From NCBI RefSeq assembly GCF_042242105.1, contig NC_092032.1, positions 9,812,415 to 9,876,414 on the forward strand: a DNA stretch of 64,000 nucleotides, given 5' to 3'. Origin of the DNA: Pempheris klunzingeri (lineage: Eukaryota > Chordata > Actinopteri > Acropomatiformes > Pempheridae). Made by a program: the position numbers and the translations under genes. Under the pieces are notes generated by a model. The model was not told the DNA's origin and ran no database searches. It saw only the letters and a list, made by a program, of their open reading frames with translations. Positions 12,852 to 64,000 of this stretch are shown here, in pieces. The first letter of the stretch is position 1. Each line of letters opens with the position of its first letter.

Positions 12852-13250
12852 CCTCTCTCTCTCTTCTCGCTATTTTATCCCTCTGGCTGAGGCAGTGGTG
12901 TACACCTACCCCTCGTCCTGCTGCCGTCCAGAGGGGAGTGGAGCCGGCAGAGGCAGGTAGCAGCAGCCCCTGCTTGGTGGACGCATCCGTCGCATTCCTC
13001 CACCATGCCGGACCCGGGCAAGGGGCGACGAGTGGATGCTGTCGGCTCATTCAACCTATTAGACACCGGCAGCTCCATTTAACTCCGCATGTCAAAGTTT
13101 GCATTTTCATGACGCAGCAGCAGCAGCGTGGATGGATTAAAGGTATGAGCAGGATGCCTTGAGCCCGCGACCCCATGCCATATACTGGTAAATCCATAAT
13201 ATACAGAGAGTGACTACATGGATTAATACATTGGAGCGGATACATGAAAC
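12600..13250 (+). promoter_or_regulatory. skida1: Candidate skida1 promoter and 5' UTR
   Basis: This 650-bp stretch precedes the skida1 ATG. It has a CCAAT box at 12624-12628 and a long pyrimidine tract dominated by CT repeats (about 12,755-12,865). A GC-rich leader-like segment follows. A possible splice donor, AAAG|gtatga at about 13,140, raises the chance that part of it is a spliced leader; I could not place its acceptor. Confidence 0.4.
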
Positions 13251-15764
13251 ATGGGAGACCTGGAGTGTGGCTTTGAGGAAATGCAAGGAGTGAGATTGGG
13301 ATACCTGCTCATCAAAGGCAAGCAAATGTTTGCTTTGTCTCAGGTCTTCACCGACCTGCTGAAGAACATCCCTCGGACCACGGTGCACAAGCGCATGGAC
13401 CACCTGAACGTGAAGAAGCACCACTGCGACCTGGAGGAGCTGCGGAAGCTCAAGGCAATAAACTCTATAGCTTTCCACGCCGCAAAATGCACTCTCATAT
13501 CGCGGGAGGACGTGGAGGCTCTGTATTTCTCCTGCAAGACGGAGCGGGTGTTGAAGTCCAACAAAAGGAAAGCGAAAGCGGGGTGCTCCCCCGGGGATGA
13601 CGAGGACGCGTCCCCGGGGCTCCTCCGTGCGGACGCCGAGCTGTGGAAGGAAAAAGTTTGGTTTAGTTTGCACGGTGTCCCGGAGACTCTCGCACTTCAC
13701 AACAAAACCGGCAGGAGGAGGGAGCTGACTCCTTGCCTTACCGACTCCAAACTACCTCAATTTTACCACAAAACGCACGGACGCGAATACCGTTCGGTGG
13801 TCAAGTCCAGTCACAAACACTTTAAAAACTATGAAACAGCTAAAATAACAGGGAACCGTGTTACTTTAAGCCAAAGGCACTCGTTTTTCCGGAGCGCGGT
13901 GAGCCGGCAGCCGGTGGTGCTCCAGTCCGCCATAGCTGCTCAGTCCAGGCTCTCGCGCTCAGCCGGCGACCTACTTCACAAAAGGAAGAGGAGGCGCGAG
14001 GGGGGCGGCGGCAGGGACAGCGCGAGGCACTCGTGGAGCAGGAGCAGACACGCGCACCACCACGTACCACCGGTGCTGCTCGTGCAACCCAAATCACCCG
14101 GTGCGCACGGGACCTCTTTCGGTGCTTTCCACCTCGGTCCGGACTTCTATCTTGACCCCAGACCTCACCATCACCACCACCACCAGCATCACCACCACCA
14201 TCATCATCACCACCACGAGCCCACTTTCCCGGAGAGCTACAGCAGCGACACCGAGTCCAGCACCTACTCAGACCGGCCGTACCCGGACTCCGACTTTGGG
14301 TCCGGCTTCTCCACCACCAGCAACTCCGGCAGCTCGGAGGAGGAAGAGGAGGGCGAGGATGAAGACGACACGCAGTCGGAGAGTTCAGAGGTCAGCTCGG
14401 ATGAGGAGGAGAGCTCCACTCAGTCCGACTCCAGCTCTGTTTCCAGTCGTGTTTCGGTCCAGAGCATCCGGTTCAGACGGGCCCGGGTCGGGTCTCTCGC
14501 CAAAACTCTCAGCGCCAATAAAGCACCTTTGGTCCTGCAGCCCACGTTTCACTACAACCACCAGCAGCAACAGGAGAAACAGCACAGGACTCTGGGCCAT
14601 GTTTCCACCTCACAGCCGGGGGACAGCAGACAGGAGAAGCTACAGAAATGTGATTTTACATGCAGTGAAACTAGAAAGGACTCGGGACCTTTACAGTCAC
14701 CAAAATTTAACCCATCTGCTGCGGGGGAGAGCTTTTTCGCCGAGTCCATAAGGGAGAGGGCGTTTGAGGCTGATCCAAACAGGGCTGAACCAGAGCTGAC
14801 CCCTTATTCACCGGGACCCAACCGGAATAAGGCCTTCCCCCCATCACGCAGGACGCCGGGGCACCCCACCAAGTGCCCCCCGGGACTGAGCGCGCAGTGG
14901 GACCACGACAAGCCCTCCAAATGCACCGAGAAAAGGGAGGCGAAAGCCACCAGCCAGAAACTGCCCACTCCAGTGAAAAAAATCAAGACCGAGGCGGAGG
15001 AATCCCCTGTGACCGCCGCCCCCCACCCGGACAGCAGGACACCACCCTTCAACCTCCACAATGTGAAAGTTAAAGTAGAGGAAAGCTGTGATGAATATGA
15101 ATACCAGAGCCAGGCCACTGTAGTCAGGAGTAAAGGAGATAGAGAGAGCAGCAATGGACAGCATCCCAACGGAGCCATCAAACAAGGGGACTATTTCAAC
15201 AGCGGGGTTAAAGCCACAGAGAAGAGCCCCGATGTGGTCCCCAGGTCCCCCTGTGGTCCTCAGGAATGCAGGAGCACCCTGGACACCCCTTGTGTGGACG
15301 AGGGGGAGCACAGGACCAAAAACTGCAGGGCTGCCGTGCCGGGGAATAAGAAATCCCGAGTTTCCCGGACGCAAACAAAACTAAACGTGCCCAGGGTCAA
15401 CAAGGCTGCCTCCTCTTCTTCATCTACTTCTTCTTCTTCCTCCTCCTCCTCCTCCTCTTCTTCCTCCTCTTCTCGTCCCGCGGGCTGCACGGAGGAGGTA
15501 TCCGCGGAGGATTTACCGAGCAGACGCAAACGCAGCAACGCGAGCACCGTAGCATCGCCTGCAAAAATGCCTTTCAGCCTGATGGCAAATTTCCCATCCC
15601 CGCCGTCGCTGGTTGTTGGCAGCGACGGGGATTTGTGCCCCGCTTACTCCCTGAACTCGCTGAGGGGCCCCGGGCCTCCCCCTCTGTCTCACCCCGTGTG
15701 GAGGTGGCAGCCAGGCGGCCAGATCCTCCCTCCCCCACACGCTCAGAGAACTAGGAAATACTGA
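13251..15764 (+). CDS. skida1: SKI/DACH domain-containing protein 1
   Basis: An uninterrupted 837-codon frame, close to the human protein's length. Residues 1-110 form the SKI/DACH domain: [20 protein letters not shown], then [16 protein letters not shown], a KRMDHL motif and [18 protein letters not shown]. The rest is low-complexity and probably disordered: basic KRKRRREGG near 245, a His run at 306-322 (17 residues, one Gln), a Glu/Asp/Ser stretch at about 362-392, and a Ser run near 720-743. Two sumoylation-type motifs, IKTE (Lys 579) and VKVE (Lys 608), suit a transcriptional regulator. The start is chosen because the domain begins right after it and matches the family N-terminus. The coding region lacks introns, as in other vertebrates. 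Function is poorly known; a nuclear co-regulator role is inferred from the SKI/DACH fold. Confidence 0.95.
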
Positions 15765-26950: not shown

Positions 26951-28149
26951 CGCACACTCCAGGCGCTTACATAACGCTCGGTCTGTTTATTCCGCCTCTC
27001 CGTTACGCAGCGCCGAGACGCCGATACAGCAGCTTCTTTTTGAAGATTTCGTTGACTTGATCGTTTGTTAATTGTACCACTGCGTGCGCACCTTGAAACC
27101 CCCCCCAGTGCCTAACGAATAAAGCAGGTTATTGGAGCTCAGCGGGCCTGGGGGGGTGAGGTGGGGCTGGGGGTGCTTTACGCACAGTCAGGACCGCAAC
27201 GCTGCGTATTGACGCTTGGGGTTTGGTTGGAAAATGCGTCTCAAAGTGGGATCCGGGCACCTCAAGGGGTGCTTGAATGGACTCTGGGGGGTCCCGCAGC
27301 AAGCAGGGCATTATGTATTTACTATATGTGTGTAAATTAACTCACATGGAAACATCCTGATTAAATTTGCACGCAGGGAATCAAATATAGGTTTCACCCC
27401 TGCGACTGATTGTCTTCATATGCAGTTAAACCTATATTAAATCGACAATAAAACCTCACTATTTAGTTTTTCTGGGAGGGGATCAAATGAAATTGGTTTG
27501 TGTTTCTGTGATCAGGTGTGTTTACTTCGTGTTTGTATGACGTGAAGACGTCTGCGAGCTCCTGAGCAGGACAGACGAAAACGAAATCGCCCAAATATGC
27601 GCGTATTCTGTATAAAAAATGGACCGAGAAAATGTGTTTGATTCCCCCCGCTGTGCCCCTCTCTGGTGCCGTCAGCTCCAGCAGATGCTGCGGTCTGACA
27701 GCCCCCCCTGCCGGCCACAAGGAGGAGTGGGAAATTCTCTTAAAGGGGATGTCTGGAAAACCGGAAAAGGTTTTTAAGGTGGATCGGTGGAGTTAGCTGC
27801 ACGACGAGGACGGTTTTACACCAAAGGGCTCACAGGGCAAACTGGACCCAAACGACACACATCCACCGGTTCGGTTGTGTTGATGCATTTCCAAGCCCAA
27901 CAGCTCTGAGGTGCTCTGCAAAATTATGCTTCTTGACAGGGAGTCCAAGCTGGAGCCTCCACTGCTACCTGTCTTAAACCAGCAAGTCCACAAACACCTC
28001 TAATGGTGAGATCTTTGTTTCCCCATCATTTCTACTTTTAAAACGACGTCTTTGAAGAGTTTCCCTTCATTTAAGCGAATAAGTAGCGACCCAGATCCAA
28101 GCAGAGTGGCGGTTTTACGCACTGATGCACACAGATGAAACCCAACTGT

Positions 28150-28230
28150 AGGACCCGTCACCCCCGTTGTCATTTTACTCATCATAAAAAAAATATTTTA
28201 AGACTCAGAATAAAACTAAACGGTCCATGA
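28150..28230. repeat. Dispersed repeat, copy 1 of 2 in window
   Basis: This stretch shares clear similarity with 46531-46606. Both contain CCGTTGTCATTT, then TATTTTAAGACTCAGA, then TAAAACTAA and GGTCCA in the same order and spacing. The copies are 18 kb apart, the second inside pkd1l1. It is probably a fragment of an interspersed element of unknown family. Confidence 0.6.
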
Positions 28231-29141
28231 GATGGAAATATTTTTCATACTGCAGCTCACTGTGTGTGAGCTTTATAGGGATTTAATGGCGCAGTCAGGC
28301 CGGCTGGCAGAAGGATGGTCCCTAAAAAAAAGCCTCCATATTCCTGATGGCAAAATAAAACAGAGATGTGAATAGTTTGGGCTGCTGTTGAAGATTCAAC
28401 ATGCTGTGTTTAAAGTTGATGAAACGATAGAGACCAGTCTCCGTCTCTCAGGTGGTCCAGTCGGCTTCAAATAGCTGTTTACGGAATCAAATCAATAATG
28501 GGATTTTTCCTGGTGGCTCGACGCAGCACGGAAATAATTCATCTTCCTGTGATTCAGGCTGTGGGGCCTTTGTGATTCATGTAGGCACCTGGACAGGTCA
28601 CTTTAGGCCACTTCAGTTTTATCATATAATGAATGTACAGGCAGGTCTTTACATTATGCGTGCACACCAGGGCTAGATAAAATAACAGGAACAACACATC
28701 ATTTTCAGCAGTTTTCTTGCGTTTTGTCAGACGTGCTGAATAATTTCCTTCGCCTCGTTAATTTTTGGAGAGTTTGTGACAAAAGAACCAGCAGCTCAGA
28801 CAGCAACACGGGCCTTTGTTCCTCTGGAAGTTGCTTTATTTTGCATGAAAACCTCACTAGTAAAACCCACAGCTGTGCAAGTAGTATTCAGCTTGTGCTA
28901 CTGGTGACCTTTGAAATTGTGATTTGTATACGGAGCAGACAAAGCACGGCATTAACGTGGGATAATAACGAAGCAGCTTTATATAAATTCTGATAATGAC
29001 CCCATACACAAAATACAGGAGCACTGGGTCAGTCAAGACCCTCACCGGCACTGCAGGAAATACACACAGCTTTACATAAAAAGCTCCCACACACTCTCAC
29101 TAGCATTTAATGAAGTTCATTTGCACACAGTCCCTGTCTGC

Positions 29142-33339: not shown

Positions 33340-36300
33340 GTGAGTTTCATTCACTGAAAGTATTATGCTCATGTTTATTATTGATCAAAGAATTAATCCG
33401 GGGATATTTTAAATCCCTTGAAAAGAGCAAAATCAACAATGTGTTAGTCTCTTGCTCAAGACTTCCCCAGCCTGACTGTGGCTCTCAGAAAAAAGCCCAT
33501 TGGTTCCTACTAAAGATCTAAATCGTTAAAAACGCCTCACAAATATAGTTTCATTTTTAAAAAAGACTCAACAATTTCTTAAAACAGCTGGGCATTGTAG
33601 TTTACAGCAAACGTTACTCAAATGACAGTAAATGAGGCATTTGTTGGGAACTATTTTCAGCTGCGGATTAATACACATTTGGTAACTTAACAAGAGGAAT
33701 AACCTAAACAGACTTTGGTGTGCAATACTTATTTGTGGAATCAATTCATTGTGTTTTTTGGTCTTTTCATGCGATTTGCCGACATTAAGAGAAATACAAA
33801 GTATGACTTATCCTTTAATCGCTCATTTGCACTTATACTTGCAGGTGGTGGTGCGTCTGGCCGTCTCTGACCTCAGAGTGAGTGTATCAGGGGATGGGCT
33901 GACCTCCGGAGAGGGCGTTTCTGTGGACACGGAGCTGTTCACCACCATGAAGCACCTCCTCATCCTCAACCTCACGCTGAACGCCGAATACGGCAGCACT
34001 GATGCGAAGGATAATTTAAGCAGCACTGACGGAGGTGACTTTAGTAATGACAATAAAAGCATCAGCGACAACACCACTGACATTCATGATGCTGAAAATC
34101 ATTCAAGCAAAATGACTCACCAGGAAAACTGTAACCATGGCAACACCAGCAATGCTCACAGTCTCAATCAAAGTCACAGTAACATCTATTGTCACATTGG
34201 CACCCACTCATGTCTTTGCTCTTATAATAACCTTCAAACCTCCAGCCGCTCCAGCTGCCAATTGCTCCTCCACCTCTACCTCCACTGCCGCCTCCCCACA
34301 GCTGCAGGACGGTACCACCTCACAGCGTCTGTTCTCTCCACTTCTGATCCCCCGTCAGTGCTGCTCTCCACCGTCTTGCCACGAGCCTTGATGGTGTATG
34401 AGTGTATATGTGTCCTGAGGCCTTCTGGGAGTTGGAAGTCAGCAGTTTCAACACGTGCAGGATTCAGCCTGGAGGTCGTCAGCCCCGCCAGCAGACTGGG
34501 GTCGAGAGTGATTTGGACTTTTAGTTTGGATGCTGTTATTTTGATGAACAGGACTACGGAAGAGTGGAACTTAAATGTGTCTTTCACAACAGCAGGCTGC
34601 TATGAAGTGACAGTTAAGGCCTTTAACCCGACCAGCTGGGCCTCATTCTGCACACACATCCTCGTTCAAGATCCAGTCGGAGAGCTGGTGTTAAACGCTC
34701 CCAGTGTGATCACAACACATCAGAATCAGTCCGTTTCATTTAGCGTGACAGCTGGGTCGAATGTGACTGTGTCTCTGCTGGTGAATGCAACACTACTGTA
34801 CAGAAACAGCAGTTACGCTACAGGAGAAGAGGCAGCGGTGGTTTTGCTTTTCGACCACACCGGGACGGTTGTGGTTGAGCTTCGAGCTGAGAATCGAGTG
34901 TCTTCTGAGAACAAAAGCGCGAGGGTTTGTGTTGAGGGGAACAGGAAGCCGTCACCACAAGTTACAGCTAATCCAACATGGCAACCACCTACCGGTCAAA
35001 GTCCTGTTCGCAGCCTTGCAGACAATGGTGAGTAAGTATTTCTAACTAACACCCACTGAGCAGTACCAAACATTTGAACATTAATTAAGCATTTTAGAAA
35101 ATGAGTGTGACTTTCTTTTCTTGTAAATGTGTCAGATTTTTATCTTTAATCAGTGTCTAAACACTTTGATTGTATGACAAATTTCTCAAATAATTTCACA
35201 GTTCTTTTTAGACTGTCAAAGAAAATGAAAGCTTTTGTGATGCTTGTTATTTGGCACCCTTAAGAAATAACAAAAACTGTTAAGCTTCAAAATCATGAAG
35301 TTGATAAAGAGTTGTCTAATCTGCCTTCGATGGGACATTACGCCAAGTTCTCCTATCAGGTCCATCTTTTGTTTTCTCCCTATGTTTGCACAACATAATA
35401 ATTATTAGTCTCTCATTAAGAATTGATATTTGTCCAGTATATTTAAATATAATGACAATGTGATGTGTGTTTTGACCCTGACAGTGCGGATTTATGCAGC
35501 AGAACAAGCTTATCCCACAAATATAGACGTAACTTTCATGGCTGTGGCTGATGTACCAGACCCTGTGGAGTTCCTCTGGCACTTTGGAGATGCGAGTTCA
35601 GCCAGAACCACCTCGAGGACCATCACCAAAAGATACCACCAACCTGGCAGGCATGTGGTACACACAGAATGACACAGTATTCAAAATACAGTTTATAGTA
35701 GTGCATTGTTTCATTGTACTCCAAATGACCCAAAAACTGTAAATTGTAAAGTTTCATCATGTGTGCCGCCAAGTTATTTCATAAAAGCACTTAGATAACC
35801 CGTTAAGAGAAATAAATGGAGATCGAGTACACAGGCAGATCTGTCCCTGAATAATACCAATATTCAGTCTCATATTTTCAACACCTAAACTTCTCATTCA
35901 AATCCCCCTCTTCAATGTAGATATGATGTAGTTGCTGTCATGTCAAGTGGTCGGACCTCTCGTACCTCCGCTGTGTTCCCACTGGTCGTCCAGAGAGCAG
36001 TGAAGCTCCACAGGCTGCTCCACCAGGCGTCTGTCCTGCAGAACCAAGCGGTGACGGTGAGTTGCCGGGTCAGTGCAGGGACCGACGCCACCTTCCTGTG
36101 GAGCTTTGGAGACGGAACGTCCAGGCTGGGACAGAGCACAGAACAGCACGTCTTCCACAGGTGACATTCACTATCAGTATTGATTTTTAGCTTTGTGGTA
36201 GCTCAAAGTTGGATGTTTTTAATAGAGCTCGACTTAAATCTATTGATATATATGGATATATCATAAAGAAATCCAATACAGAAACATAGTTACGTAGTTG

Positions 36301-42300: not shown

Positions 42301-45300
42301 TGCAGTGACTAGTTGTTTTATAGCCGTCATCATCTAGTAATTAGAGCAACGCATTAACACAATGTAATCATTTTAGTGATTTTGCGAGTAAAGAACAAGA
42401 ATGTGACACAAGAATCTCTGTGGCAGGATGTTTGAGAGGCCGACTCCCAGCATGCACCATCTGCTCAGGATTCACCACCGGGAGGGCAACACCACACGCT
42501 TCACTCTGCCCCCATCCTACCTCAGTGGTAAGAAACTACTGTCACTTTTCAGCTCTGTCCCTCCTCCTCTCTTCTGGTCTTTCCATCTATCAAACACGGT
42601 CTTTTTCTCTTATCAAATTAATTATCCCTTAAAACTCAACGCTGCCTTTTCTGGACACATTTTTTGTACCAAAATGTGTAACTGAGGCAATAAAGCAGCA
42701 CTAGATCATCATCTCAAGAGAGTTACTCATCACGGTAACAAAATCATAGTTATTTGAAATGTAGTAATACTTGCCATTACAAGACTTTTCACAGCCTCAC
42801 AGACTCTCATAGCCTTACAGCTTAAGCTATTTTGCAATGTCATATAAAAACTTTCTACGTTACCAGGACGATGCTCAATCAGTGCTGCAGAATATTTCCT
42901 TGTTTTCTTTTCTCATGTATTTTCAGAACTTGTTTTTAAAAAATAGCTTCCCAAAATCATAAACTTCTCTAGCTGCAGGAGTTGGTCACCTGGCCCTGCT
43001 GAACGCTGATTTTGGGAAAGACACACCTGGACGCAAACACCTGAGTGAGCAGGTCAACTACAGTCTCACAGTGGACAGCAGCCTGTGTGTGTCCTGGGAC
43101 GGCCACCAGGAGGGCTGGACACACCACGGCTGCAGGACACAGCAAGCAGACTCAGCCACTGCAGTCAACTGCAGGTGAGAAAGTGTGTGTGTGTGTGTAA
43201 GATAGACAGACCACGAGACCTTCACACAGAGAAACATAGAACATCGTGACCCCTTGCTTGTTGGTGTGTGCTGTTTTGTCTCAGTTGTCTCCAGCTGAGG
43301 CCGCTGACTTTGGTGCAGCAGCAGATCCAGAGCAGCCATGACACAACCGACCTGGACCCGTTTCTCAGGTGACCTCATCTTTCTTAGATTTGGATGATGT
43401 ATTAAAGCAGAGAAAGTCAAGATGTTAATGTCTGTCGACTTATATACTATAACTATACTACTATACTAGAATACTAGAACGCAAATAGCATCATAATCGT
43501 TTGCTGATCAGTTTTAAAATGTTAAAAAGCTCAAAGTAAACAGAGAAAAAAAGGCACACAATGAAAAGATAAGAGAATAACCTCCTCCAGTGCCTCCCCT
43601 CTCCCTCTCTGTCTCCTCAGTGTGTCCAGTGATGTCACAGTGCTGTGTGTGCTGCTGCTGTGTGTGTGCCTGTACATCCCGGGGTTGGTGGTGTGTAAGA
43701 GAGCGGATGTTGTCTCCGAAGCCAATCGGAGAGTCCACTACCTTCATGACAACTCCCCTTGTGACCAATATCTCTACGCTGTTACAATCCACACTGGCCC
43801 CTGCTCTGCAGCCTGCATGAGTGCAAAGGTAAGACTGACTTTAGTTCCTTTAAACCACTCATTCACTCTCACCAGCAGCATTTGCTACATTGCTTTCAAC
43901 TGCACATAAAACTTGTCAAACTTTGATGAATCATATTGAAACTGACATGTGGTTCTTAAATAACTGATCGGGCTCAATTGTGACTATAAGGCTTGTCATT
44001 TGGATGCTGTTGTCTTTATCAGAATAAATACTTTTACAGTACTTTGATAGCAGGATATTCCTAGTCTGAGTTCAGTGTTTGTCTCCCTCCCTCAGATGGG
44101 CTTCAGTGCATGAATGGATTCATAGAATAATGGAGAGTTTGTTTGGTGTTGTCAGTGGAGAACTTTCTCACCTTACTACTACCTTACTGCGTTTTGTTCA
44201 TGTAGCCAAACAAAAATACACACATACAACAGAGTTATTTGGATTTAATTAGCACACATATGTTTGATAGTGTGATGTTGAATCTTAATGCAGTTGACTG
44301 GAGGTGTTTTACAGCTGACTTCACACAGGAAAGAGAAGAAATCCACTAAAAGTGGTACGATTGTCAGAGGAGTCATAAACAGCACTGCCTGAGACGAGGA
44401 CCATGTAGACCACATCTCCCTTTTCTAGTTTAAGAACTAATGCATTGGACACGTTAATATAGTGGTAGCTGGAGCTAGCATGGTGACCTAAACTCCAAGT
44501 CATAACCTTGTCATTGTGATAAAGTCTAGCACCTATCGTAGATGATCCACGGTCACCAAACATGCTGAATCTGAAGTAGTAGACTCCTCTGACGGGGGCT
44601 GTGAAGATACCTGCATCAGAGGAAAAAAAGCAGAAAGGGGTCAAAACTTTCTCACTGTTGAATGAACCAATTAACTCAAAACTGCAAACTTGTGTCATTG
44701 TAGCAAAACAGAGGGACATTTGTTTTATTAGTTAACTAAGAAAAGCTTAATATCACATCCAGTCCTCTGTAAAGAAGTTTTATGCTCGTTTGTGTGTGTG
44801 GGTGTAAGAGCTGAGTACCTGTAGTTGGGCTGTAGGCCTGGCCGATGTTGGTGAAGACTTTACTGAACTTCAGTGTGATGTCAGTGTTGAAGGGTCCAAC
44901 ATGTCCTGCATCAGTAAGACTGGCTGAGAACGCCACCTTTGGGCGATCTGTGTGAATGTGGAAGAAGCACATAGAGAGAACTTCACTGCACTGTAGTCTA
45001 TGAACAAATGGACTGTATATCCTTGATATACATGATAACAGTTGTCATAAATATTAAAGTCACTCTGCATCCTGTTGCATTAAAAACACTTCTTAGTTTA
45101 CCAGTTCCATCCTCACTGCCAACATGATGTGACATTTAGACTTTTAATAATGGTTTATTTAACTTACCTGCATTCTCTCTCTTGAGCTCCTCCACCTCGA
45201 TCTCACTGGAGCTCATTCTGGCCTCCAAAACTGGGAACACATTAAAGATTTTCATCATAAAGTAGGTTTATGATCAGCATGTTTCATTTTCTATGATCGC

Positions 45301-48300
45301 TGTGTTGGCCTACCTGTGCTCATATTTTCAGCTACTGTTAGTCTGGCCTCAAGATCTGCCATAGAGGGCAAAATTAAGAAGCAGGTTAATAGCAGATCAA
45401 TAACCAGGTGTGAATGTTTCTGCTAAGCAGACAAAACTGTGAACACGGTTAACATTTTTTATTGTAAAGCAGGTTTATGGGAAAAATGTCTATTGGAAAT
45501 CTAAGATTTTAATCTCACCACATACGCACTCTAAACGTCACAACATGTTACTCCGGAGCTCGAGCAGGAAAATTATCACAAATATGAATTCACTTCCTAT
45601 CTATATCTAAATGTAAACAAATGTAAATATTTACCTGCGTTCTTGCTTTCACTGGCTGTCAGTCTGGCCTGCACGGCTGGGTTTAAAATAATTAATAATT
45701 AATACTCCTTAATGTGAATAATAACATTAATGAACATTGCATGAATCTGTGCAGCACTATGTGACTGTTAACCTGTGTATTATATGACCCGTGTGTCACC
45801 TGTATTTTCTTGCTCCAGCTTCTCTATCTTGCTCTTGCTGTTCCTCAGCTCCACCTTTTGTTCGATGGCCATGTCTCTGAGCTCCTTCAGCTCAGCCCAG
45901 ATATCAGGGCTGATGCTCCTCTTCCCTCCATCTTCCTGGATGTTAGCGTTCCCTGTCACCCCTCCGCTCTCACCCTGAGCCCACGTCCAGTTCAGACAGA
46001 GCAGCGACGCCAGAAGGACCGCAGCAGTCCTCATTGTGAAATATCACCAGTTTAGATGGCAGGATGCAGTCTGACATGTCTGGCTCAGTTTTTATCCACA
46101 TAAAACAGGTCACTGAGGAGCCGTATGAGAATTGAACAGATGTCTTTGATAACACTTTTAAAATAACTCCAAACATCCTTGAACGCTGAGCTGATTTTAA
46201 AGCAAACAGCAATTAGTTAGAACCATATCCTTTAAGATTATTTATAATGTATGCTTTCAAACTAACAACATTAATGGCTAAACTGTTGATAAATGGGATA
46301 TTTGTTTACAAGTTATCCTCATAAGCGACGGTGAAGTTCAGCACTAATGTGTCTGGGAAACCTTCCTTATGCATTTATCAAGTTTACATAGTGCTGAATG
46401 GTGAATATGGATTCTCACAGACAAGGGAACTGCAAGTCTCAGGATGCCCTCTGTTCAGGAGGAACTCTTAAGACACCTTAATACTCTATGATATGATCTA
46501 AATATCACCAATCAACAAGATTATAGGATGTGTCACCCCGTTGTCATTTGTCTTGTCTTAAACATATATTTTAAGACTCAGACTAAAACTAAGTGGTCCA
46601 GATGAGGTTACTTCTGGATGCTTTTGGAGACTCTTGATGTTGTAGAGTCATTTTGAGGAATCATATTGAAACTGATCACCGTCACCAGTTTAGACGGCAG
46701 GATACAGTCGGACACGTCTGGCTCAGTTCTCATCTCTATCTACCCATCTCTGAACAGCTGTCTTTGATAACACTTCAAACATCCTTGAACACTGAGCTGA
46801 TTTTAAAGCAAACAACAACTGCTCAGAATCATGCCCTTTAAAATGATTAAATTATTAGAATAACAAGATTAATGGTTAAACTGTTGATAAGTGGGATATC
46901 TGTCCACAAGTTATCCTCATAAATAGTGAAGTTCAGCACTAATGTGTCCAGGAAACCTTTTCTATATGTCTATCAGGTTTACATAGTGCTGAATGGTGAA
47001 TATGGATTCTCACAGACAAGAGAACTGCAAGTCCCAGGATGCACTCTGTTCAGGAGGAACTCTCGAGACTCCTTTATATTAAGGTAAAATCTCACCAATC
47101 GACAAGATGAAAAATAAGGTGTTAATCTTTTCCACTTAAAATCGATACACAGAATGCTACACATTTTACCACAATACTACAGTAGCTTTAAACAATGATA
47201 AAAGTTGGTTTGCTCATTCACTTCAATGTATTCTCTATGTATTACACCACAGTGCAGCAGACAGCCTAGGCCCAGTGTGGGGGGTTCATATCTGGCATGA
47301 CAACTCTGGACCTTCCCCGACCTGGTCCCTCAAACAAGTGGAGGTATCAGAGGTGAGGTGTTTGTGAATGTGCTGTTTGTTCTGTGCTCAGACTTTAGCT
47401 TTGACCATGGAGATGGTTTGCTTGTCTTCTCTTAACACAGGTGAGCAGAGGGCAAGTGAAGGGACGTTCGTGGCTCTTTGTCGGTCAGTGCTGGTTGGCT
47501 GTGAACAGAGGTGATGGCCGGGTGGAGAGGATGCTGCGAGTCTGCACTCAGGGAATAGGCTTTGCTAAGGTAGAGCGCTCACATACACGTGAAAAACACA
47601 ACATCTTTTAATCTCCTCTCCCATGTCACCCTGAGTCTCCACCTGTATGATCGCAGATGCTGTTCTTCAAGCTATCTGACTACTTGGCCAACCACCACCT
47701 CTGGGTATCTGTGCACAGCTGCACTTGCCCTAACGCGTTCACACACACGCAAAGACTTGGTGTGAGCCTGCTGCTACTGTTGGGATACGCATGTGTCAAC
47801 ACGGCAATCATATCACAAATGGATGCACAGGTAGGTTCATAAAACCCTCAAAGTTTCAGATTCGATGCATGAAACTTGTGACCCATGACGTTGTTGTTGT
47901 TCCTGATCCCTTGTTAACAGTTGCCTTACACATTGGGCATCATTGATGTATCAGCTGTTTCTGTGACGACCGGCGTGTTCAGTGTGGTGGCAGTGTTGCC
48001 TACAGCAGCAATAATATCCATCCTGTTCCGACTGCGTGAGGTCAAGCTGACGGGGTCAGGAGTCCAACGTGCAGAGGGCAGGAATACTGAAAAGAACTTT
48101 TTTGAGGGTAAAACACAGAATTTCTCCTAAATCTTAGCAATGGACATTGTAAATGTTGCTAACTTAGATCATAAAAATGACAGAAATTACCATCCACCCA
48201 TTTCTGTTTTCATTGGAACAGAATTAATCTGCTTCAATTATTAATTTGCTTCTTTTGCATTTTTAACTCTTCTTTTCTCATCTCCTCACCGCCCTTTTTA

Positions 48301-51300
48301 CTTTTTCCTATTTCATCTTTATTGTGCCTCCTCCCAGATGCCCTTTCAGCGACTGACAGTCTATTCGAGCCCCATCTCTCTTGGAGCAGTCTTCAGCAGT
48401 GGGTGCAGGAGGTATGGGGGGAGAAATATCTGGTTACACCTCAATCATCCTTCTCCATGTCTTTGCTCTCACAGCTTTTTTCTGTCCCTATCGGACTCTT
48501 CTTCTTGCGTCGTAGGCCACAGACCTGCTGCCAACGTCCACCACGATTCAGGAGAATAAAAACACAGACAAAAAACCTGCAATCCAAACACATGTGGTCA
48601 TAAGAAAGGAAGACGCTCCAGCAGTTGAGAACAATATGGGACCAGCGTTTCAAAATCCATTCATTACTGAGGGGAACGATGTTGATCAAGTGCCTCAGAG
48701 AAAAGAGTTTGATCTTCAAGGAAAAGGGAAGGAAGACAGGCATCAGCAGGCGGTGTGGTTTGGTCACCGTGGTTGTTACCACGCCATCAGCAGGCTGAAA
48801 GGGAAAGGATTCAGACCAGTATCTCAATGGTGTCACTATCTGGCCTGGACACTGTGTCTGCTGTTGTCTCTCACCTGCCTGGTGTTCTCTGCGGTGCTGG
48901 GAGCGAGGTAGTGCATGTTATACTCACTGTTTGAAAGATGATTTATATGCATTGTTATAACTGTGTGCATGTGTGTGTTTTCATGCGTCAGGTTCAGCAG
49001 CAGCGAGGTTCTGCTATGGATGCACTCTCTTTTCTTCTCACTGATCTCTTGCATCTTCCTCATCCAGCCAGCTGTGGTAAACTCAATCAACATGTACTCC
49101 TCAATCCTAAATTGGAACTGCCCAGAAAATAAATGCAATTTAACACTCAAAATATGTTCTTTTTCTTTTACAGATAATCACAGTGGCAGTGGCTGTCTCC
49201 TTTTGGTACAGGAAAAGAGCAGACTTTTATAGTTTCTCCAGTATGAGAGAATTTGAGATGGAGACTTCAGAACTGTGGCGCCACAATGGTGCTAACCAAT
49301 CAGAGGAGCATGCCCAGGAGACATGCTCGTACTTTGATAAGGTGACAACCAAACGCTGTTCTATTTCACTCTCATCTATTAAAGGGCCCATATCATGCAA
49401 AATGCACTTTTCATGTCTTTTCAACATAAATACGTGTCCCATGTGTGTCCATCCTCTCTCTGTTTCTCCTGACCATCTATCAGTACATGTATGAAAGCGC
49501 TCTGTATAGATTTGTGATGTCACAAGGGGATCTGTGGGTCATGTGACCTCCTCCAGCCCTTCAGCTGGTCATCTGTCCCCACCCACTGAAAACCTCCAAA
49601 ACAGGGTTAGGGTTAGACATCGGTGTTGTTTCTTCACCAACTCCACCTCCCAGTAACACAAAGATGTCGACAGCGAGAGCAAAGCACGCAAACTGTTCTG
49701 TTCTTCTAAAACAGCTGCAGCAGCCATGTGTCTTATGAGAAAAATAATGTGAACATTAGACCGTGTAAACCTGTCCTAGAAGGACCTCCAAATACAAGTA
49801 TGAACTTGAAAATGAGCAGAGTGTGGGGCCTTACAAATATAAAGCCAATTATCTCTGACTGACAGCTGCTTGGAGCTCGCCAGCGAGCCCGGCGCCTCCG
49901 TCTCGTGCGTCCGCTGACTGCAGCAGAGCTGAGGAAAACTCGTGGGAGGAAAAAGAGAGAGACTCTTATCCACAATACCCTCAGGTATGTCTGTTTGTCT
50001 TTGAGTGTGTGTGCACCAGTTTGTATATGATTTAAGGCTGAATTATCTCTTTGTGTTGTCATGCAGGGATTTGTCTGTCTGTGGCTCAATGCTTTTCCTG
50101 ATGCTGTGCATAAATTATGGCAGCTCTTTCACTGACCATTACCACCTCAATAAAGCTGTCAGGAAACAGTTTCTAAGGTAACATTTGCACACACACACGC
50201 TGTCTCTGTGGTTGTCCCTGTTGCTCTCTGATAAACACACTCCAAAATCATATTTTGTCTTTCAACAGGGGCCATGATAATGCATTTATGTCCATACAAA
50301 AGCATGAGGACTGGTGGGAGTGGGCACAGACCCATGTCCTTAATTCACTGTACAAGAACACATCAGCGACAACTGAGGTAAGCCATGAAGCAATGAAAAA
50401 TAATGAACCATGACCTTGTATGCAAGTGTCTATAATCCTCTAAGATAAATGTACCTTTGAAGAAAAGATCCTCTTTTATATTTCATCGACATAAAATCAG
50501 ACAAATCTTTTCACCTTTTCCACCACGTCCTCCAACAGTCGTACACGTTGATTGGAGAGCCGATCCTGTGGAAGACGGAGGCGTCCAGCTCATTTCAGGG
50601 CCAGGTAAGAAACAAATGGAGACAGACATGTCCTCAGATGGAGTATTCCATCCTTATTTCACCTGCATTTAATCACTTTATCACAAATGTGCCATCATTA
50701 TTAAGTTCCTGGGGGAAAAAAAACATATTGTGATGATTATTTTATATGGATTTTCACCAATTGTGCTAATGGTTGTGAAATAACAGCAGTTTAAGTATGG
50801 AAAAGCGGCCACATCACACATTGTCACCTCATGGAACTGCTGTGCACTGACTCCCCCTGTAGAGAGTGCTGTTTTACGACCCAGGCCACAGACATGAACA
50901 CTGTATTGGTGCACTGAAACATTTGAGTATCAGCCCTTTATAATTACCTGCATTGAGAGATGGATGAATTCTTGTACTGTACATGTATTAAAGCTACCAT
51001 CGTGTCACAGCTACTACAAGTATTACCTCTGATTCTGTTCTGATTGTCTGTGTAATGTTTTGATTGATTGCTCAGGTCTCTAGTGTGACTCTTGTCCCAG
51101 AATGTCTTCGCTTACTTCTGTCTGGGACCAGAGCGTCCACTCACCCACCCTCCAATGTCTTTGTTCCTATGGCAACACCTCCAAGGACATGCGGCCAACT
51201 GGGCTGCTACGTAGGACCGGGTGTTACAGTCAGCTTAGGCCACACGAAGTGAGGAACACACATGGTGGACTGTCATTTGAGTGTTTTCCAAATGTGATCT

Positions 51301-52048
51301 CCGCTGACACGATTTCCTTGTGGAATCAGCCCTAATGTCATCATTCAGTCATCCTCTGCTCCTCTGCAGGTCAGACGCTGCGTCCAGACTGAAGCTCCTG
51401 CATTTAGGCGGCTGGCTGGGCAGACGGACGGTGGCCGTAAAGGTCCAGTTCACCTTGTTCAGCCCCGCACCCAACTTGTTCACCAGTGTGACCTCGCTGG
51501 CTGAGCAGAGCCCCACTGGTGTCCTGCTGCTCTCTGCCAAAGTCCAGTCAGTCAGGGTGCATCACACTCCTGCTACGGGGGATTATGCTATTATGGTCTG
51601 TCAGGTAAAAGGAGACAGTATCTTTAATCTTTACAACTAGCACTGAGAAAAATCTACAAAATCTACAGAAACACAACAAAATATTTATGATTCAGAGGAT
51701 TTTAAAGGAAAAACAAGCACAACATTGGACTGAATAACAGTTTGATCACAGGATCTCATGCCACTTTAGGTTACTTAAGCCTTAAGATTGCTCACAATTC
51801 TTCTTCCTCTCCTCCAGCTCCTCTTCCTTCTCTTGTCTCTGCTGCAACTCTGCGATCAAGTGTACGCTGTGGGGCAGCAGGGGCTGATGGGATACTGGAA
51901 GACACCTTCCAACTGGCTGGAAGTGAGTCTGTCGCACATGCATAAACATACACAGGCACAAATATGAATCTCAACATAATTTAACAATAATAAAAAAAAG
52001 TAAAGTAAAGAGTCAGACGCACACAGCTTGAACAAACATGCACAGGCA

Positions 52049-58700: not shown

Positions 58701-59400
58701 GTGAGTGTTTTGTCTTTTTTTTTGTGTGATTAGCTGCAATAATCTTTCTTGCTTCAATATATACTGTGCATGAATAAATAAATTGCATCTAAATCGGTAA
58801 GAATTATCTTCAACAATCATATGGTTTGACATTTTAGTCTGGCCCTGATCTAAATGGTAAAGATGAAGGAAAATGTACTTAAACATGTTTAGTAATGAAT
58901 AATTTTCAGTTTTAAGCAGGTCTAATTGTTCACGCTTGTGAAGTGAAATCACACTTATTCTGAATTTCCTTCCTCCGTCCACAGGAAAGCTCAAACCAAT
59001 CATAAAATCCCAGCCAGTGCCAAAGAACAACAAAGGACCAGTCAAGGTTGTGGTAGGAAAGACCTTCGACGAGATCGTCATGGATACCCAGAAAGATGTC
59101 CTCATCGAGTTTTATGCTCCTTGGTGCGGCCACTGCAAGAAACTGGATCCTGAATATTTGGCTCTGGGCAAGAAGTACAAGGGGGAGAAAAACCTGGTGA
59201 TCGCCAAGATGGACGCCACAGCCAACGACGTGCCAAACGAGAACTACAAAGTGGAAGGCTTCCCCACAATATACTTTGCCCCAAGCAACAGCAAGCAGAG
59301 CCCTGTCAAATTGGAAGGCGGAGACAGAACAGTAGAGGGGCTCAGCAAGTTCTTGGAAGAGCACGCCACAAAGCTATCACAGAAAAGAGATGAACTGTGA
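55721..59400 (+). CDS. pdia4: Protein disulfide-isomerase A4 (ERp72)
   Basis: Ten exons: 55721-55796, 56169-56349, 56464-56669, 56788-56926, 57075-57280, 57378-57536, 57663-57814, 58086-58242, 58467-58700, 58985-59400. They total 1,926 nt, 641 aa, against about 645 in human. The signal peptide starts [18 protein letters not shown]. An acidic segment follows ([19 protein letters not shown]), which binds calcium in the family. Three catalytic thioredoxin domains each carry W-CGHC ([42 protein letters not shown]). Two non-catalytic thioredoxin-like domains (b, b') lie between the second and third. The C-terminus is RDEL, a KDEL-type ER retrieval signal. The enzyme forms and rearranges disulfides in the ER lumen. 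A poly(A) signal AATAAA is at 59622-59627. Confidence 0.97.
56437..56461 (+). repeat. pdia4: 25-T run at pdia4 exon 3 acceptor
   Basis: An uninterrupted run of about 25 T residues directly abuts the TAG acceptor of exon 3 and serves as its pyrimidine tract. Such runs vary in length and can alter splicing. Confidence 0.85.

Positions 59401-60348: not shown

Positions 60349-64000
<3,652 letters not shown>

Follow-up and report, generated by a model that had tools for sequence, protein, structure and literature searches.

Pseudogenic exons (PsiE) have been surveyed in four mammals, in which 0.4-1.0% of genes have such exons associated with them (Morais and Harrison, 2009; PMC2718932). The locus described here resembles the mammalian cases in that a supernumerary copy of a host-gene exon has acquired a premature stop codon and is decaying. 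It differs from them in that both splice sites are gone as well, in that the duplication also took in the 5' side of an oppositely oriented nested gene, and in that the host was read as a fish in the first-pass annotation. Tandem exon duplications and mutually exclusive exons (PMC9013439) likewise set homologous exon copies next to one another in a single gene; unlike in mutually exclusive exons, one copy is dead here, which leaves no choice between exons. Finally, vertebrate genes lying wholly within an intron of another gene are exemplified by LRRTM in alpha-catenin (PMC3933685); the present arrangement is of the same kind, but the nested gene encodes a C1q domain and the intron belongs to a polycystin gene. 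The dead twin is a further case of a known fate of duplicated exons, to which the likely complementary loss involving the nested gene, with the C1q gene now beside the dead copy only, adds a small twist.

A polycystin-1-family gene lies on the plus strand of the window, that is, the whole stretch of 64,000 nucleotides analyzed. Pfam matches succeed one another on this strand in the order PKD (33686-35035), PLAT (in spliced exons within 43621-47829) and Polycystin_dom (51308-51640), the combination and order of domains that place the gene in this family; the scan of the polycystin region covered hand-picked open frames only, and the three stretches most likely belong to one gene. Within the family, the name pkd1l1 given in the first-pass annotation is a putative one; exon numbers 32 to 36 are likewise those of that annotation. 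The exons considered here, all on the plus strand, are the upstream exon 32 (43621-43828) and the downstream PLAT exon 34 (47253-47352), the live PLAT exon 33 (46977-47083; 107 bp, phase 0 to 2), and further exons of the PLAT stretch at 47441-47569 and 47657-47829, delimited by hand splicing. Once spliced by hand, exons 32-36 match the PLAT domain of Pfam (E 7.7e-10) and polycystin-1 chains of the PDB (E 3.2e-18 to 3.8e-18). In one scan of viral contigs for relatives of the PLAT region, the pattern matched 1 stretch, and none was confirmed.

Self-alignment reveals a gap-free twin of exon 33 at 46382-46488, on the plus strand and in the intron just upstream, precisely where the first-pass annotation had located it. 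The two copies are identical at 96 of 107 positions, and three of the 11 mismatches fall in the first 87 bp, as had been counted. The twin is disabled at several points. First, CGA has become TAA at codon 30, in frame. Second, the acceptor, which reads TATCAG/GTTT in the live exon, reads TATCAA/GTTT in the twin; the exact AG is gone (AA), but an AG persists one base on, formed by the last A of the intron and the first G of the exon, and the reported loss of the acceptor holds for the exact site only. Splicing at this shifted AG reads F-T-stop, the stop being the third codon. Finally, the donor is lost, with no GT between 46470 and 46529. The live copy is intact, with AG and GT borders and a frame that is open together with exons 32 and 34-36.

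The twin is a pseudogenic exon. It is a same-strand copy of an exon of its host gene, its coding capacity is abolished by the TAA at codon 30 and also by the stop reached through the shifted acceptor, and its divergence is decay-like, with 9 differences in 107 aligned sites where 7.7 would be expected if half the noncoding rate applied. It does not form a mutually exclusive pair with exon 33, in which both copies would be spliceable and in frame, since the left copy has neither an exact acceptor nor a donor at its end nor an open frame.

The length of exon 33 explains why exactly one copy is usable. As 107 bp leaves a remainder of 2 on division by three, including both copies or neither gives an early stop: the normal splice form of exons 32-36 contains no stop in 238 codons, while a stop appears at codon 108 of these spliced exons if exon 33 is included twice, and at codon 85 if it is skipped. 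We infer from this frame logic, and not from the decay pattern, that exactly one copy must be spliced in. The first-pass annotation had taken the pattern of decay as showing that selection kept exactly one exon; the frame supports this statement, but the pattern alone is no proof, since in simulated neutral decay both splice sites are lost with a probability of 0.087 given that at least one is lost (0.0065 for loss of both sites together with a stop). Selection presumably played a part in this outcome.

The twin is, as had been proposed, embedded in a longer duplicated unit, the left copy of which spans 46044-46521 and the right copy, carrying the live exon, 46682-47108 (both given on the plus strand). 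The left copy comprises the presumed promoter and 5' UTR of the C1q gene on the opposite strand, intron sequence, the dead exon and 33 bp beyond. Among 425 aligned bases, 370 are identical and 55 different, plus gaps, and the E values of the pair in two BLAST runs within the window (2.8e-103 and 1.05e-101) show that the similarity does not arise by chance. With a duplicated unit and a disabled twin, the core of the first-pass reading, a tandem duplication with one copy dead, is borne out. Comparison of the window with itself (E 1e-6, low-complexity sequence masked) yielded two pairs, the unit pair and a 79-bp dispersed repeat pair. In the spacer between the units, 46524-46606 (plus strand) is occupied by a dispersed repeat, roughly 80 bp long, that resembles 28149-28231 (68 identical and 13 different bases); BLAST puts the identity of the two sites at 81% (E 1.4e-11). 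Tandem Repeats Finder, applied to 43000-49500 with a longest period of 500 and hence blind to a unit of about 600, returned no row, and Rfam gave no match at gathering level over the whole window.

Between exon 32 and the live exon 33, in the same intron as the dead twin, lies a nested gene that was overlooked in the first-pass annotation. Located on the minus strand at 44321-46034, it has six coding exons delimited by hand-picked AG/GT sites, and its open frame of 266 aa ends in a C1q domain (Pfam, E 3.1e-25). The ATG starts at 46034 and the stop codon ends at 44321; the model includes five introns, and the gene as predicted is intact. The duplicated unit starts only 10 bp upstream of this ATG and therefore holds the 5' flank of the C1q gene. 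In the left unit, this flank contains on the minus strand what we take to be a TATA-like box (46088-46097) and an initiator-like TCAGACT (46068-46074), both of which are altered by eye in the right copy; the TATA-like motif alone is weak evidence, since such strings occur on the minus strand at about 2.1 per kb. Three small exons of the C1q gene, of 42, 42 and 63 bp, correspond to 14, 14 and 21 residues, each a multiple of the seven-residue heptad typical of coiled coils. Weak direct repeats of two families, D5 (74%) and D7 (77%), are found in two introns or exons of the gene and may represent internal exon duplications. No paper combining pkd1l1, C1q and intron was found in the open-licence part of PMC.

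A probable trace of the duplication extends beyond the unit. The right unit is preceded, at a distance of 6 bp on its left, by a 24-bp stub (46652-46675, plus strand). Its counterpart at 43922-43945 (plus strand) lies in the stretch that separates exon 32 from the C1q gene, and 23 of the 24 positions agree. This counterpart is situated on the far side of the C1q gene, with which the stub is collinear. Against 43828-44320, the score of the match was reached by 2 of 500 spacer shuffles, and against 43829-46043 by none of 1881 40-mers drawn at random from the window, the 40-bp query having been chosen after the match was seen. A third stub-like site within 3 mismatches is absent from the window, and the zero count of the stub pattern in shuffles is post hoc, the pattern having been built from both matching places; the test with random 40-mers provides the fairer control. 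In this comparison, the right copy can be read as the left copy without 43946-46043, a stretch of 2098 bp that contains the C1q gene.

The likely starting point is a tandem duplication of an intron-exon block of about 2.6 kb (now 43922-46521 in the left copy) that comprised the nested minus-strand C1q gene together with a PLAT exon; complementary loss would then have ensued. One of the two exon copies would have had to fall silent, as two or zero copies hit an early stop. The left copy no longer has an exact acceptor, a donor or an open frame, and its exon decays; the right copy would have kept the exon and lost the whole C1q gene through a deletion of about 2.1 kb that spared the 24-bp stub and what had been the promoter region. 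One exon and one C1q gene would thereby have been restored, now further apart. The C1q gene was probably already part of the block before it was duplicated, and the events probably followed one another in this order. With slightly less confidence, we favor viewing this history as complementary degeneration at the scale of an exon: a single duplication would have taken in a host exon and, on the other strand, an unrelated nested gene; each of these elements would have disappeared from a different copy, which would have restored a single dose of both with altered spacing between them. The decay of the left exon and the absence of the C1q gene between the copies are seen directly, and this absence more plausibly reflects loss than later insertion of the gene on the other side. 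Against the duplication of a 2.6-kb block stand the mere 24 bp of the stub, about 45 bp of spacer without assignment, and the absence of outward homology and of a C1q relic in the spacer. Homology continues neither left of the stub (score reached by 882 of 1000 shuffles) nor beyond the right end of the unit at 47108 (839 of 1000), and no relic of the C1q gene was found in the spacer by tblastn or at the DNA level (score reached by 340 of 500 shuffles).

It is possible, although clearly less probable, that the tandem duplication was a small one, of about 0.5 kb, covering the stub, the promoter-like stretch and the exon, and that the left copy acquired the C1q gene afterwards, by insertion between stub and unit. 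The status of the dead exon as a relic would be unaffected. The direct succession of stub and unit in the right copy would then be the ancestral state, and a spacer devoid of C1q relics would be in keeping with it. However, the five introns of the C1q model argue against a simple retrocopy, the 5' flank of the gene lies inside the unit common to both copies, and no target-site duplication is visible by eye at the junctions. Duplication of the whole block is preferred over later insertion because the C1q gene has introns and because its 5' flank is present in both copies.

The divergence between the copies bears on the age of the duplication. Of 318 aligned noncoding sites of the unit, 46 differ (K2P 0.165); for the exon and its twin, in a gapped alignment, the count is 9 of 107 (K2P 0.090). 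Nine differences in the exon are in line with what half the noncoding rate would produce (7.7; a probability of 0.75 for at most 9) and with the mean of 8.4 obtained by simulating decay on the dead branch only; over its full length, the exon has thus diverged as expected if one copy decayed freely and the other was under constraint. From the scarcity of differences in the first 87 bp, the first-pass annotation had concluded that the event was fairly recent or that gene conversion was at work. This deficit leans toward that view in being pronounced against the full noncoding rate (3 found, 12.6 expected, P 0.0008; Fisher p 0.0046), but the proper expectation is half that rate, or the dead branch only, against which it is weak (6.3 expected, P 0.118, and P 0.080, respectively). 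Divergence is high in the last 20 bases of the exon (6 of 20 differ in the gapped and 8 of 20 in the gap-free alignment), is not significantly uneven among bins along the unit (chi-square 16.2, 10 df, p 0.095), and an 87-column window with 3 or fewer mismatches arises somewhere in 200 of 5000 shuffles. Given the noncoding K2P and the fit of the whole exon to a decaying and a constrained copy, neither a recent event nor gene conversion, nor a functional spell of the twin, is needed. At substitution rates of 2-8e-9 per site and year, the duplication would, as a rough guess, be some 10-40 million years old.

It is very improbable that the twin still functions, as an alternative or poison exon through whose stop the gene is regulated. 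An AG does persist one base downstream of the lost acceptor, and nine GTs, which are candidate donors, follow at 46530-46607, including gag/GTTACT at 46607; yet no GT is found near the old end of the exon, and the whole-exon divergence matches neutral decay of the twin. Least probable of all is an assembly artefact in which two haplotypes were joined end to end, for, although the analysis rests on the assembled window, the units differ by 12.9% mismatches plus indels, which is far above the usual allelic difference, and the C1q gene is present on one side only.

The locus provides a clean worked example of the principle that an exon of a length not divisible by three can hardly persist in two copies, and suggests that a nested gene and an exon of its host may be sorted into different copies after a single duplication. 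Its use will mostly be in annotation, as automated gene prediction may include the dead exon or put the promoter of the C1q gene in the wrong place.

Elsewhere in the window, further coding stretches were observed. On the minus strand, 61084-61461 resembles by eye an exon of alanine aminotransferase, although the raw frame has no Pfam match at 0.001. None of the names pdia4, skida1 and gpt is mentioned in the text of PMC5318412, a paper on zebrafish pkd. Two open frames lie on the plus strand: the first, at 13248-15764, runs over 838 codons and contains a Ski/Sno DHD and an EPOP domain, and the second, at 58942-59400, encodes a thioredoxin domain with RDEL at its end. We take these frames to be SKIDA1-like and PDIA4-like, respectively.
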